Assembly: GCA_020629035.1 (NCBI GenBank)
Contig: JAHDEC010000007.1
Location: 1-64,000 of the forward strand
Reading direction: 5' to 3'
Source: Saprospiraceae bacterium
GTDB taxonomy: Bacteria; Bacteroidota; Bacteroidia; Chitinophagales; Saprospiraceae
Length of the DNA stretch: 64,000 bases
The translations under genes were made by a program, and so were the position numbers. Below, one piece after another: positions 23,101-59,444 of this stretch. The notes under the pieces were generated by a model that saw nothing but the letters and a program-made list of their open reading frames with translations, searched no databases and was not told the origin of the DNA. Positions within the stretch are counted from its first letter, which is position 1. The number at the start of each line of letters is the position of its first letter.

Positions 23101-24239
23101 ACGCCTATTCCTGTATTAATAAACAATCTTCTTTCATCCGAACTATCAAAATCATTAAATACTGCATCTATTTTGAATAAGGCACCATTTACAGGTTGGT
23201 AATTAAATCCGAAGGTAAAATAATGATGATCTTCCCATGCATTTAAGGCATCTGTTTTAAGGGTGTTTTCATTAAAATAACTATACCTAAGAAATCCCAT
23301 CCACTTTTGCGCTTCATCAAAATAACGACCATATTCTATATAGGCTCCCAGTTGTGATTTACCTAAATCCATTCCTGTTTTTGCATTATAAGCCTCCACA
23401 TTTTCTCCATTAATATTGTAGACTAATTGCGCTCGCAATACATTTTTACCTATAGTAGAATTTGCGTGCAAAGCTAACATTGTAGAATAAACCACAGTAC
23501 TATCCGCGGATAAAACAGCTGGTGAATTATCTTTTGGCAAACCTGAAAATGCATCAGAGTTTGACATCCCAGAATAAGCAGAGAGACCCAATTTTGTCTT
23601 TGACAAACCAAAGTATTCTAATTGACCACTGAATGATGGTAATCCTGATAGGACTGTTTTAATTCCTTTTTGCCTTCCACCTCTAAAGGTATTAGACGCC
23701 TGGAATAATCCTTCGCCTCCTTTATAGCCAATCAAACCATTTACTAAATAAGCTTGATATTTTAGGCTCGCTGAAGGGAAAACACCTGTGATTCCTACAC
23801 CTATATCTCTCCATGTAGAAGGAATTAAGTTTCTGTCGATAATAGGTCTATCAACCGAAAAGAAATTCGTCGGTTCGTGGTTTTCATTGATATTACCCAT
23901 TGGGATTAAGATCATACCAGCCTTAAGCGAAAGATTGTTTTTTAATTTATGCTTAATAAATGCTTGTTCGATAAACATTTCGTTCCCATGTTCTAATTCC
24001 CACTCAGTTAAAAACTGAGTATTCCGATTAAACTGGTAACCAAATAAAGCCACTACCCTTTTAGCATCTAGCTTGCCTGGTCTATAAGTATCATTATCTA
24101 CTTCTTGATAGTAATGAATTTCACCATACATTTTAATGAATAAATTAGCAATCGAACGATCATTCTCAAAGTCAATGGTTTGAGCATTCAGAAATGGCAA
24201 TGACAGAATGAATATGGCTGCAATTATTAGTATTCTCAT
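23091..24239 (-). CDS. Porin-like outer-membrane beta-barrel
   Basis: Protein of 382 residues with a signal peptide (1-19, ending FLNAQ) and a series of short amphipathic strands separated by polar turns, ending in an aromatic residue (GIGVWF), as in outer-membrane barrels. Segments such as MYGEIHYYQEV, FLTEWELEHGNEMFIEQAFI and LKAGMILIPMGNINENHEPTNFF recall the phosphate-selective porin O/P type found in Bacteroidota. Its gene overlaps the FMN-binding protein gene by 10 nt. The pair suggests a passage for, or partner of, a flavin-based electron carrier; the substrate is unknown. Confidence 0.8.
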   Translation of the reverse strand: MRILIIAAIFILSLPFLNAQTIDFENDRSIANLFIKMYGEIHYYQEVDNDTYRPGKLDAKRVVALFGYQFNRNTQFLTEWELEHGNEMFIEQAFIKHKLKNNLSLKAGMILIPMGNINENHEPTNFFSVDRPIIDRNLIPSTWRDIGVGITGVFPSASLKYQAYLVNGLIGYKGGEGLFQASNTFRGGRQKGIKTVLSGLPSFSGQLEYFGLSKTKLGLSAYSGMSNSDAFSGLPKDNSPAVLSADSTVVYSTMLALHANSTIGKNVLRAQLVYNINGENVEAYNAKTGMDLGKSQLGAYIEYGRYFDEAQKWMGFLRYSYFNENTLKTDALNAWEDHHYFTFGFNYQPVNGALFKIDAVFNDFDSSDERRLFINTGIGVWF

Positions 24240-24271
24240 TGTTGCTTTACTCTATTTGGATTAAATCTAAA

Positions 24272-24279
24272 CAAATGTA
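24272..24279 (-). promoter_or_regulatory. Candidate -7 box of the porin/FMN operon
   Basis: The minus strand reads TACATTTG (TAnnTTTG), 33 nt before the porin ATG, giving a leader of about 25 nt. A -33 element is not clear. Confidence 0.42.
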
Positions 24280-24473
24280 CTATTGTTTTTAATTAATCTA
24301 AATAGCGATAGTGGAATATTTTTCAAAATATTTTATCCTGGGCTTGGAAGAGGTATTAAGAGGCATATTTATATTATGTATTATATGTCTACTAAAGATA
24401 TCTCTACACCTTTTTATAGGTTTTGAAAATGAGAAAAATTTATAATAACTAAATCAAACCATACTTCATACAT

Positions 24474-24501
24474 AAGTAAAATTTGCATGTCATTTTTACT
24501 T
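24474..24501. promoter_or_regulatory. Distal dyad, candidate activator site A
   Basis: AAGTAAAA and TTTTACTT form a perfect 8-bp inverted repeat spanning 28 bp. Its centre lies about 175 bp before the predicted start of the sigma-54 transcript, inside the usual range of activator (enhancer) sites. It is a near-copy of the dyad at 24550-24578. A separate 7-bp hairpin, GCCTATACACTGTAGGC, lies between them at 24518-24534. Confidence 0.55.
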
Positions 24502-24549
24502 TTCGCTGCTGCTAAATGCCTATACACTGTAGGCTAAACGCTTACAGTT

Positions 24550-24578
24550 AAGTAAAATCTATCATAGGATTTTTACCT
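24550..24578. promoter_or_regulatory. Proximal dyad, candidate activator site B
   Basis: AAGTAAAAT and ATTTTTACCT flank an 11-bp core, a second copy of the dyad at 24474-24501 with the same outer half-sites (AAGTAAAAT ... TTTTTAC). The centres are about 76 bp apart, close to seven helical turns, and this one is about 70 bp upstream of the -24 element. Confidence 0.55.
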
Positions 24579-24634
24579 GTTAATCTATCAACTATAGAAA
24601 AAGAAATAGTTATATAATGCCATATGTATATATT

Positions 24635-24651
24635 TTGGCACAGTACTTGCA
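24635..24651 (+). promoter_or_regulatory. Sigma-54 (RpoN) promoter, -24/-12 elements
   Basis: TTGGCAC, five bases, TTGCA: an exact match to the sigma-54 consensus TTGGCAC-N5-TTGCW with GG and GC at the required spacing. Transcription should begin near 24662. The spacing and both invariant dinucleotides make chance occurrence unlikely, and it lies in non-coding DNA with a terminator 43 nt downstream. Confidence 0.85.
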
Positions 24652-24661
24652 AATAGTAGAT

Positions 24662-24720
24662 TGAATATGAGTTTTGGTTATTAAATTGAGTATGCCCGTG
24701 ATCCTCTCACGGGCTTTTTT
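24662..24720 (+). ncRNA. Predicted sigma-54-dependent small RNA (~60 nt)
   Basis: The region between the sigma-54 promoter and a strong intrinsic terminator contains no gene beyond a possible five-codon frame (ATG at 24668). A transcript would be about 60 nt with an unpaired AU-rich 5' part and the terminator hairpin at its 3' end, the architecture of known sigma-54-driven regulatory RNAs such as Qrr and GlmY. The alternative is that it is the attenuated leader of ald, 120 nt further downstream; read-through at the terminator would then feed ald. Confidence 0.6.
24694..24720 (+). terminator. Intrinsic terminator of the sigma-54 transcript
   Basis: GCCCGTGA pairs perfectly with TCACGGGC around a 5-nt loop (TCCTC) and is followed by six T, then CTTTTT. 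Stem is GC-rich in an otherwise AT-rich stretch. Confidence 0.92.
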
Positions 24721-24841
24721 CTTTTTGATACTTTCCTTAGTAATATATTTTTTCAAAAGCTTTCTATATCTCCATTAACATTAGTCATTAATTATTATTT
24801 TTCAGTTTAATTTAGTTTTAAACCAACAAAATAAATCGTCG

Positions 24842-25957
24842 ATGATAATCGGAGTGCCTAAAGAAATAAAAACAAACGAAAACCGAGTAGCCTTGACACC
24901 AGCGGGTGCTCTAGAACTTGTTAAGCACGGTCATACTGTTTACGTACAATCAACAGCAGGAGATGGCTCAGGCTTTTCAGATTCAGATTATGAAGAAGCA
25001 GGTGCCAAGATGCTTCTTACAGCTGAGGCAATTTTTGATATTGCTGAAATGATTATGAAGGTCAAAGAACCTATCCAGCAAGAGTATAATTTAATTAAAG
25101 AAGATCAACTAGTCTTTACCTATTTTCATTTCGCTTCATACGAACCACTTACTGAAGCCATGATAGCTAACAAATCCATTTGTTTAGCTTATGAAACAGT
25201 TACCGCAGCCGATGGATCACTACCCTTACTTGTGCCCATGTCAGAAGTGGCTGGAAGAATGGCGATACAAGAAGGTGCTAAGTACTTAGAAAAGCCCATG
25301 AAGGGACGTGGTGTGCTTTTAGGTGGAGTTCCTGGCGTACCTCCCGGCAAGGTATTAATCTTAGGTGGCGGAGTTGTGGGCACCCAAGCTGCAAAGATGG
25401 CTGCAGGTCTAGGAGCTAATGTGACCATATTAGATATAAACTTAAACAGACTAAGATATTTAGCGGATGTGATGCCTGCGAATGTAAGTACCATTTATAG
25501 TAATGAATACAACATTAAACGATACATAAAAAATCATGATCTAATCGTAGGTGCAGTCTTAATTCCTGGTGCTAAAGCGCCAAATCTTATTTCAAGAGCC
25601 ATGCTTAAAGATATGAGACCTGGTACAGTAGTGGTCGATGTTGCCGTAGATCAAGGTGGTTGTATCGAGACATGCAAACCTACTACACACGAAGATCCAG
25701 TTTACATTATAGATGATGTTGTGCACTATTGTGTGGCGAATATGCCTGGTGCTGTTCCCTATACATCCACCATTGCCTTAACTAATGCTACACTACCTTA
25801 CGCTATCCAATTAGCTAATAAAGGTTGGAAGAAAGCATGTAAAGAAAATGCAGAATTAAAGCCTGGACTAAACGTAATAAACGGAAAGGTGGTACATAAA
25901 GGTGTATCAGAAGCTTTTGGTCATGAGTATCATGATGTGGATAATTTCTTGGCGTAA
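24842..25957 (+). CDS. ald: Alanine dehydrogenase
   Basis: NAD-dependent enzyme of 371 residues that interconverts L-alanine with pyruvate and ammonium. The N-terminal domain opens MIIGVPKEIKTNENRVALTP, the family signature; substrate residues Arg15, Lys75 (MKVKEP) and His96 (YFHFA) are in place, and the Rossmann motif GGGVVGTQAAKMAAGLGA is near residue 177. Length fits (about 371). It is a single gene; no TAnnTTTG box is evident in the 120 nt before it, so it may depend on the upstream sigma-54 promoter or on one not recognised here. Confidence 0.95.
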   Translation: MIIGVPKEIKTNENRVALTPAGALELVKHGHTVYVQSTAGDGSGFSDSDYEEAGAKMLLTAEAIFDIAEMIMKVKEPIQQEYNLIKEDQLVFTYFHFASYEPLTEAMIANKSICLAYETVTAADGSLPLLVPMSEVAGRMAIQEGAKYLEKPMKGRGVLLGGVPGVPPGKVLILGGGVVGTQAAKMAAGLGANVTILDINLNRLRYLADVMPANVSTIYSNEYNIKRYIKNHDLIVGAVLIPGAKAPNLISRAMLKDMRPGTVVVDVAVDQGGCIETCKPTTHEDPVYIIDDVVHYCVANMPGAVPYTSTIALTNATLPYAIQLANKGWKKACKENAELKPGLNVINGKVVHKGVSEAFGHEYHDVDNFLA

Positions 25958-26055: not shown

Positions 26056-26310
26056 ATGAATATTTCCTATAATCAATTAAGACAAATTAAACACAGCTTA
26101 CCTACGGGGAGCGTTTCCAAGATCGCAAACCAGCTAAAAGTGGATGAACAAACGGTGCGTAACTATTTTGGTGCTCAAAAATTTACTGATGGTCAAATTG
26201 CCTCAATGAATATCGAGCCAGGACCGGATGGAGGAATTGTAAGTTTAGAAGATACTACAATCCTTAATGCGGCTAAAGAAATTCTTGCGTCATCAAGTAA
26301 GATGAATTAA
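26056..26310 (+). CDS. Small DNA-binding-like protein
   Basis: Protein of 84 residues without signal peptide. Residues 5-45 look like a helix-turn-helix: NQLRQIKHSLPTGSVSKIANQLKVDEQTVRNYFG, where the segment KIANQLKVDEQTVRNYF is the putative HTH. The C-terminal part ends with a helix (TTILNAAKEILASS). Conserved short proteins of this type exist in Bacteroidota and are annotated as DNA-binding, but a role is not known. It has its own terminator a few bases after the stop. Confidence 0.8.
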   Translation: MNISYNQLRQIKHSLPTGSVSKIANQLKVDEQTVRNYFGAQKFTDGQIASMNIEPGPDGGIVSLEDTTILNAAKEILASSSKMN

Positions 26311-58683: not shown

Positions 58684-59322
58684 TTATTCTCCTGAATAAA
58701 CTGCTTTAAATGCTAGAGCAGCTAATGCAGCACCTATAATGTTAGCAACGATGGACAATCCAGCTGATCCCCAGCCTGCCATTCCATTAAAGGCCGTTCC
58801 TATAGCAATGGCTGGATTAAAGCAGCCACCTGTGCCGAAACCTCCTAAGGCATATGCCATAACTACTACAGTAAAACCAATCGCTAATCCATAGTATGAA
58901 TTACCAGAGGTACTTTTTGTAGTCGCTGTTTGAAGAACAACCCAAGCAAGGGCAAACATTCCTAGTAATTCGGCGGTAAAACCTGCAACCATATCAGTTG
59001 GACCGGCAGTTCCTCCCATGATCGTTCCTTTACCTAGTAAAGTAGCACCAACAACTGCTGCTAAAATAGCACCTAGAATTTGGGAAATCATATAGATAGG
59101 TACATCACCCGCTGGACATGCACCTCGCATAAATGCGGCTAGCGTCACACCTGGGTTATAGTGACCTCCAGAAATATGCCCTCCTGCATATACCATAATC
59201 ATTAAAGCAGAACCAATGGCAAGCGGAGCTACAATAGCCGCGTTGTCATTCCCATTTACTACACAAACAATAACTAGAACAAAGAAAAATGTTCCAATAA
59301 ATTCAACAAGATACTTTTTCAT
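58684..59322 (-). CDS. MIP/aquaporin family channel with atypical pore residues
   Basis: Membrane channel of 212 residues with six hydrophobic helices and two half-helix loops. The first loop reads GGHYNPGVTLA, so the first NPA is NPG (Asn56-Pro57-Gly58). The second reads GGCFNPAIAIG, so NPA (169-171) is followed by Ile172 in place of the almost invariant selectivity-filter Arg. The helix-5 filter His of AqpZ also appears to be replaced (Tyr157 by counting, alignment-dependent). Length is normal and there is no truncation. Water, small neutral solutes or gases are possible permeants; the filter changes make plain AqpZ function doubtful. Confidence 0.86.
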   Translation of the reverse strand: MKKYLVEFIGTFFFVLVIVCVVNGNDNAAIVAPLAIGSALMIMVYAGGHISGGHYNPGVTLAAFMRGACPAGDVPIYMISQILGAILAAVVGATLLGKGTIMGGTAGPTDMVAGFTAELLGMFALAWVVLQTATTKSTSGNSYYGLAIGFTVVVMAYALGGFGTGGCFNPAIAIGTAFNGMAGWGSAGLSIVANIIGAALAALAFKAVYSGE

Positions 59323-59444
59323 TTTTAAAGTTTTGGTTAAACGAATTATCTGTAAATAACAAGATGGAAGCGGCGACTATAAAGTCGGTAGATCGAATAC
59401 ATTCATCTAATAAATATATGTATTTATTTTATATTTCGATTATT

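Follow-up and report, generated by a model that had tools for sequence, protein, structure and literature searches.

The window analysed here (the whole stretch of 64 kb at the start of one contig of a Saprospiraceae bacterium) contains, in the non-coding DNA upstream of the alanine dehydrogenase gene (ald), a short putative transcription unit, described in an initial annotation as an exact -24/-12 sigma-54 promoter, TTGGCAC-N5-TTGCA, followed 43 nt further by a strong intrinsic terminator. Both elements are found where they had been placed (Table 1): the promoter reads TTGGCACAGTACTTGCA (24635-24651) and the terminator, which starts 43 nt past it, is composed of GCCCGTGA-TCCTC-TCACGGGC and TTTTTT (24694-24720). 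The RNA predicted between them, here called A, would start around 24662, a position derived from the C of the -12 element at 24650, and ald starts at 24842, about 120 nt past the terminator.

Table 1. Features of the window discussed in the text
Feature	Position	Strand	Remarks
sigma-54 (-24/-12) promoter, TTGGCAC-N5-TTGCA	24635..24651	+	exact match; TGGCA-N6-TTG in 51/54 untruncated homologous loci
sRNA A, ~58 nt	24662..24720	+	predicted transcript; start inferred from promoter spacing, end from T tract
conserved 5' core (seed) GAGTTTTGGTTATTAAATTGAGTA	24669..24692	+	target leaders contain its complement, TTTAATAACCAAAAC
intrinsic terminator, 8-bp GC-rich stem + T6	24694..24720	+	stem covaries among relatives
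ald (alanine dehydrogenase)	24842..25957	+	common neighbour; on this evidence not the gene under control
weak candidate target site TAACCAAAACT	59320..59339	-	6-7 nt before ATG of an aquaporin-like ORF

In a BLAST search of 60 relatives with positions 24580-24740, the strong matches were centred on GAGTTTTGGTTATTAAATTGAGTA and the terminator; they came from the two other members of the genus and, elsewhere in the family, from G019, G004, G021 and G034. An exact scan for the 24-nt core in the genome_contigs collection retrieved 55 species loci, which by their titles belong to Saprospiraceae or Saprospirales (47), Bacteroidetes or Bacteroidota (six), Chitinophagales (one) and Aureispira (one), with no Bacteroides-titled record among them. 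Because an exact scan fixes the core, its conservation in these loci is not evidence, and the test rests on the regions outside it. A covariance model built from six RNAs, comprising the core and the terminator and excluding the promoter, matched 127 of 298 genomes of the family at E ≤ 0.1 (64 of them at E ≤ 1e-4), and in an order-level draw it matched 19 of 248 genomes at E ≤ 0.001, all of them Saprospiraceae, the out-of-family share of the 248 not being given. Promoter, 5' core and covarying terminator are kept across the family, which answers the question of conservation in related genomes that had been raised at the outset, and 24635-24720 is, judged by sequence comparison, a conserved stand-alone sRNA gene.

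Within the window, TGGCAC-N5-TTGC has a single exact occurrence and, with up to two mismatches, is not enriched (34 found, 38.9 expected), and the full 17-bp pattern occurs exactly three times in the 4.08-Mb genome, its reversed form being absent. Another exact sigma-54 promoter of the same genome lies on contig C20 (C20:108624), upstream of an ORF that, by eye, starts MNAIQSTLISRI. The rpoN gene, whose absence the initial annotation had named as an argument against its proposal, is present as a sigma-54 domain protein (PF00309, E 8.7e-14). In 51 of the 54 untruncated loci, TGGCA-N6-TTG lies at most 60 nt upstream of the core (TGGCA 27-34 nt before it in loci with the exact core), and only 63 matches, including those 51, were counted in 795,350 positions scanned on both strands, which excludes a chance origin of the promoter. 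A wider, partly overlapping set gives the same picture (62 of 65 untruncated RNA copies), and the variant copies of A recovered in other genera with the promoter-free model also have a sigma-54 promoter. The element is absent at three copies of the core (L071, L080 and L089), and L064 is a cut locus. Among the k-mers upstream of 60 A promoters no clear motif for an activator-binding site was recognised; neighbouring copies of a paralogue (B, below) dominate them, and a weak ACATATTA-like element is left over.

Compared with shuffled versions, the region 24659-24722 has a better fold (z = -2.95; 1 of 200 shuffles equally good). The terminator is the only pairing in the centroid fold of A; in the minimum-energy fold the 5' part also forms a weak helix rich in A+U. 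Stem variants among relatives show paired changes (GCCCGTG/CACGGGC, GCCCGAG/CTCGGGC and GTGCCTA/TAGGCAC). Covariation was assessed in 62 loci (excluding L064, L071, L080 and L089), 52 of which passed the threshold, giving 44 distinct sequences in an alignment fitted to the covariance model; in these 44, pairing is seen in 99.7% of cells for the main terminator helix and in 79.5% for its inner extension, and falls to 20-57% in slid control structures. Three terminator pairs are changed on both sides and none of 500 shuffles attains the covariation score; three of five measures lie above all 500 shuffles, the other two being reached by 35 and 238 of them. In the weak seed helix of the model, four of six pairs are invariant and the other two deviate by unpaired cells only. 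In Rfam, none of the loci of A, of B and of a second sigma-54 RNA described below has a match that reaches the gathering score, and over 24200-24900 there are eight matches up to E 5, all far under their gathering scores; those over the RNA, including RprA and MicC (E 0.4-0.7), were judged to be chance or terminator resemblance. The family-wide promoter, the core and the covarying terminator support the proposed reading, a small regulatory RNA driven by sigma-54 and ended by a terminator of its own, and A may be taken as such a putative regulator.

The commonest gene order around A is RluA-type gene - mqnD - B - A - ald - 84-aa gene, where the RluA-type gene, mqnD and the other neighbours (except ald) are what we take them to be from their sequences. 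The 84-aa protein (26056-26310, + strand in the window), downstream of ald, is kept in 20 loci including the window and has no Pfam or NCBIfam match. In the genus of the window the A-B pair is split, B lying between mqnD and a Fur-type gene on contig C22 and A remaining with ald. B is present as a second RNA in each genome of this genus, with AAGTTTTGGTTATTAAATTGTAAAATTCG and a different terminator. It shares the core of A, and none of its 45 distinct copies has a sigma-54 element; all 45 contain a TAnnTTT box 14-18 nt before the core. In 37 of the 45 copies, A follows B within 340 nt, many of these loci having been fetched because of A. The box of B is close to TAnnTTTG, which the available part of a study of Flavobacterium psychrophilum assigns to the primary sigma factor (PMC9723704), suggesting that the promoter of B is of the primary-sigma type.

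The complement of the core, TTTAATAACCAAAAC, sits before the ATG in the mRNA of a large secreted protein. This protein starts ACNDNVQVSL..CEADITPGMILEGE; the copy in this genome (C56:78843) is 1439 aa long and carries a T9SS sorting tail, and the open frames among the top 30 matches range from 1380 to 1681 codons. TTTAATAACCAAAAC or a close form of it precedes the ATG of the target, with flanks that diverge between genera. A profile of the target's N-terminal region, made from 11 sequences that have the site, found matches in 266 of 298 genomes, several of them in many genomes. Leaders were scored by their longest uninterrupted run complementary to the core no more than 35 nt from the ATG, 10 nt or more being a pass. 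Among the top 30 orthologues, 28 leaders pass, the two failing ones (L267 and L264) having runs of 9 and 7 nt; L249 has an 18-nt run, and for the 28 of the top 30 other than L249 and L264 the median run is 14 nt, against a shuffled-seed mean of 5.6. Of the 28 passing leaders, 26 have a distance of 6-11 nt between the end of the pairing and the ATG; for the longest run in L245 and L259 this distance is 19 and 15 nt. For 14 of the 30 orthologues this count is circular, 10 being rows of profile A4 and four (L243, L244, L249 and L253) being known from the site searches; of the 16 not found via the site, 14 pass, including 13 of the 14 that come from five genera absent from the profile (g18, g70, g75, g93 and g108).

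None of 20 paralogue leaders in A-bearing genomes passes, and one of 20 comparison homologues does (L283 in G290, whose genus has A), both sets having been hand-picked among the matches listed. The comparison set represents genomes without a strong match to A, and two of its members (L276 and L282) belong to g86, which has a variant A with a changed seed (L321); a further member, L286, has a 9-nt run. The predicted duplex between A and the target leader of this genome reaches -27.2 kcal/mol, against -10.6 ± 2.5 for shuffled leaders. The fetched loci contain five more exact matches to 18 nt of the core, all of them antisense and just upstream of an ATG. The conserved complementarity suggests a small-RNA switch on the large secreted protein, as far as sequence can indicate it. 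As a separate observation, many of 27 target leaders (L238-L267) consist of TCTGAAC, a hairpin of variable sequence and then the site, some lacking the hairpin, and their median fold z is -1.6; this arrangement is possibly a conserved mRNA 5' element.

Beyond this family, TAACCAAAAC placed before an ATG was counted in the three genomes of the window's genus, and in all of them this 10-mer is outnumbered by its reversed control (6 vs 22 in G000, 9 vs 11 in G001 and 8 vs 14 in G002); a broad regulon in this genus was therefore rejected, and one well-supported target family is claimed instead. The 23 core matches with up to three mismatches in the genus are six copies of A or B, three leaders and 14 chance-like sites (13 in the reversed control). 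Elsewhere, other core matches are often antisense just before an ATG, with the exceptions of L116 and L120 (G021) and of L018 and L021 (genomes without A). A search for a 12-mer plus ATG over the 298 genomes gave at least 184 with a match, a count not used as a statistic because the antisense strands of the RNAs themselves match. In the window, the duplex with TAACCAAAACT (-15.4 kcal/mol) is the best of 57 leaders, yet it lies within the shuffle range. A micro-protein of 34-35 aa ending in SYPG, whose leader has the same antisense site in three genera (L113, L115 and L118) and whose L115 form has no Pfam or NCBIfam match, is a second candidate target. In L189 (contig C2:20795 of this genome, - strand) and L208 (G001), a putative secreted or outer-membrane protein has TAACCAAAAC in its leader, 7 nt upstream of the ATG, and the duplex of the L189 leader with A in G000 (-19.8 kcal/mol) is just below the lowest of 300 shuffles, so this gene is a possible further target. 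In genus g100, several small secreted paralogues (MKKMNLNF.., L215-L220) have a common leader, AATAACCAAAACTCAATCTCATG, and are perhaps a duplicated target set.

A is probably a sigma-54-transcribed, trans-acting antisense sRNA that blocks the translation of the large secreted protein, with B giving basal repression; we infer here that A is transcribed, that the sign of the regulation is negative and that a signal and a helper protein take part. The sigma-54 RNA polymerase would transcribe A, which would be ended by its own terminator, and because transcription depends on sigma-54, A would require a triggered enhancer-binding activator for its synthesis. The 5' end of A, which has little structure, would act as a seed of about 18-24 nt pairing with TTTAATAACCAAAAC, and this pairing, over the ribosome landing site, would block initiation on the surface-protein mRNA. 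B, with the same seed and a primary-sigma-type promoter, would maintain basal repression, to which A would add further repression on the signal.

The initial annotation had offered as an alternative a conditionally terminated 5' leader of ald, in which sigma-54 transcription enters ald unless the hairpin terminates it, and the short distance of 122 nt between the T tract and ald in the window would suit this arrangement. The synteny stands for a part of the loci, 15 of 55 having ald on the same strand and at most 300 nt downstream, and fails for the rest, where it lies farther downstream (three loci), upstream on the other strand (two) or was not found (35, absences that are upper limits, 51 of the 55 loci having at least 600 nt downstream). 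With ald so close in just 15 loci, A is not regarded as its leader: promoter, core and terminator persist where ald is not nearby, as in a gene that has its own promoter and terminator and no fixed neighbour, leaders of an unrelated gene match the core, and the consensus fold (the terminator and the invariant weak seed helix) contains no alternative to the terminator, all of which makes a role as ald leader very improbable. Still less credible is that A functions through an encoded micro-peptide, MSFGY (ATG AGT TTT GGT TAT TAA). ATG or TTG does precede AGT TTT GGT TAT TAA in many copies of A, but the 55 exact loci are uninformative on this point because their core is fixed by the scan, and this reading was rejected since B has no start codon in frame, an indel after TTATT shifts the frame and variant copies of A shorten it (L315 and L321).

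The leader motif TTTAATAACCAAAAC might instead be a general translation-initiation or protein-binding element, its complementarity to the RNA being coincidental or acting via that factor. Motif leaders do occur in several gene families, such as the small secreted proteins of g100, and in a few genomes where A was not detected (leaders L013 in G027, L124 in G047 and L127 in G017, similar to the target site). Against this, A carries the reverse complement, so that mimicry of the motif by the RNA is impossible, the paralogous leaders in A-bearing genomes lack the motif, and it is not enriched before ATG in the genus of the window; an element of this kind is accordingly unlikely, and repression by antisense pairing of A and B is preferred.

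A second sigma-54 RNA is encoded outside the window in the same genome (L003/L328, C33:106663-106783), where TTGGCACAGCATTTGCA is followed by GAGATTGAGTTTTGCC and a terminator whose stem, by eye, changes in a paired way. Among 60 genomes it has matches in G000, G001, G002, G019 and G034, a sixth (G006) being chance-like. Its 5' end (GAGATTGAGTTTTG, at C33:106674) is related to A and is complementary to CAAAACTCAATCTC, a leader found before ATG in several genera. In g93, tandem near-identical RNA-like units (GAGATTGGTTTATTGAGTTTAAG plus a hairpin; three in L323 and two in L324), in which no sigma-54 element was seen, are a different multi-copy RNA.

Among known sigma-54-dependent RNAs, Qrr of Vibrio are intergenic, have their own terminator, occur as related copies with a common core and act by antisense. 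A resembles them in its promoter, intergenic position, terminator, shared-core copies and predicted antisense action, and differs in being about 58 nt long with one strong hairpin and in that no Hfq (PF17209) was matched in this genome, which is 96% complete. The Qrr model is not among the eight Rfam matches up to E 5 over 24200-24900, and these tests do not place A among the Qrr RNAs, although it appears to work like known base-pairing sRNAs. GlmY of enterobacteria, a small intergenic RNA that has a sigma-54 promoter in some species, is similar in these respects and differs in acting by sequestering a protein; it gave no Rfam match for A in the same region.

To our knowledge, the small-RNA biology of Bacteroidota rests on a few cases from Bacteroides and Flavobacterium. 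According to the available part of its description, the FopS sRNAs of Bacteroides thetaiotaomicron act on a SusC-type mRNA, which they repress at a site adjacent to its start codon, and they are bound and counteracted by RbpB, an RRM protein (PMC11697453), so the mode of repression inferred here would have a precedent in the phylum. FopS/GibS and the RNAs described here share the phylum, paralogous sRNAs with a common 5' seed and pairing adjacent to the start codon, on outer-membrane-protein mRNAs there and, as a prediction, on the mRNA of a secreted protein here; as for the RbpB partner, the genome of the window encodes one RRM_1 protein, at C61:17388. In that part of the source, FopS has primary-sigma promoters and SusC-like targets, whereas here one paralogue would be driven by sigma-54 and the target is a large secreted protein (PMC11697453). 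That such RNAs are rarely described in Bacteroidota, as the initial annotation put it, is a fair statement, one precedent having been found: Rfp36 of F. psychrophilum is listed, in the part of the study at hand, as a putative regulatory RNA among the sigma-54-type (SM4) promoters and shares an expression cluster with the gliding operon remFG-sprCDBF, which is also preceded by a sigma-54-type promoter (PMC9723704). Rfp36 is thus alike as a putative bacteroidote regulatory RNA with a sigma-54-type promoter, and no target of it was found in that part (PMC9723704). Among the open-licence papers listed by the searches, no description of a Saprospiraceae sRNA or a sigma-54 small RNA of this family was found, nor an earlier one of a pair of sigma-54 and primary-sigma sRNAs with an antisense site.

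Across many genera of a single family, comparative sequence alone has led here to a promoter, an RNA, its paralogue and a conserved target site, that is, to a sigma-54 sRNA with a nameable likely target outside the usual model bacteria and in a lineage where, in the one genome searched, Hfq was not found. Both the sigma-54 signal and sRNA pairing without Hfq become testable with simple reporters. More tentatively, and with appreciable doubt, Saprospiraceae may have an Hfq-less sigma-54 sRNA network in which a constitutive B and an inducible A, often in tandem, form a two-level brake on a T9SS-secreted surface protein; the second sigma-54 sRNA would extend this network, and sigma-54 would then act as a translational switch of cell-surface composition.
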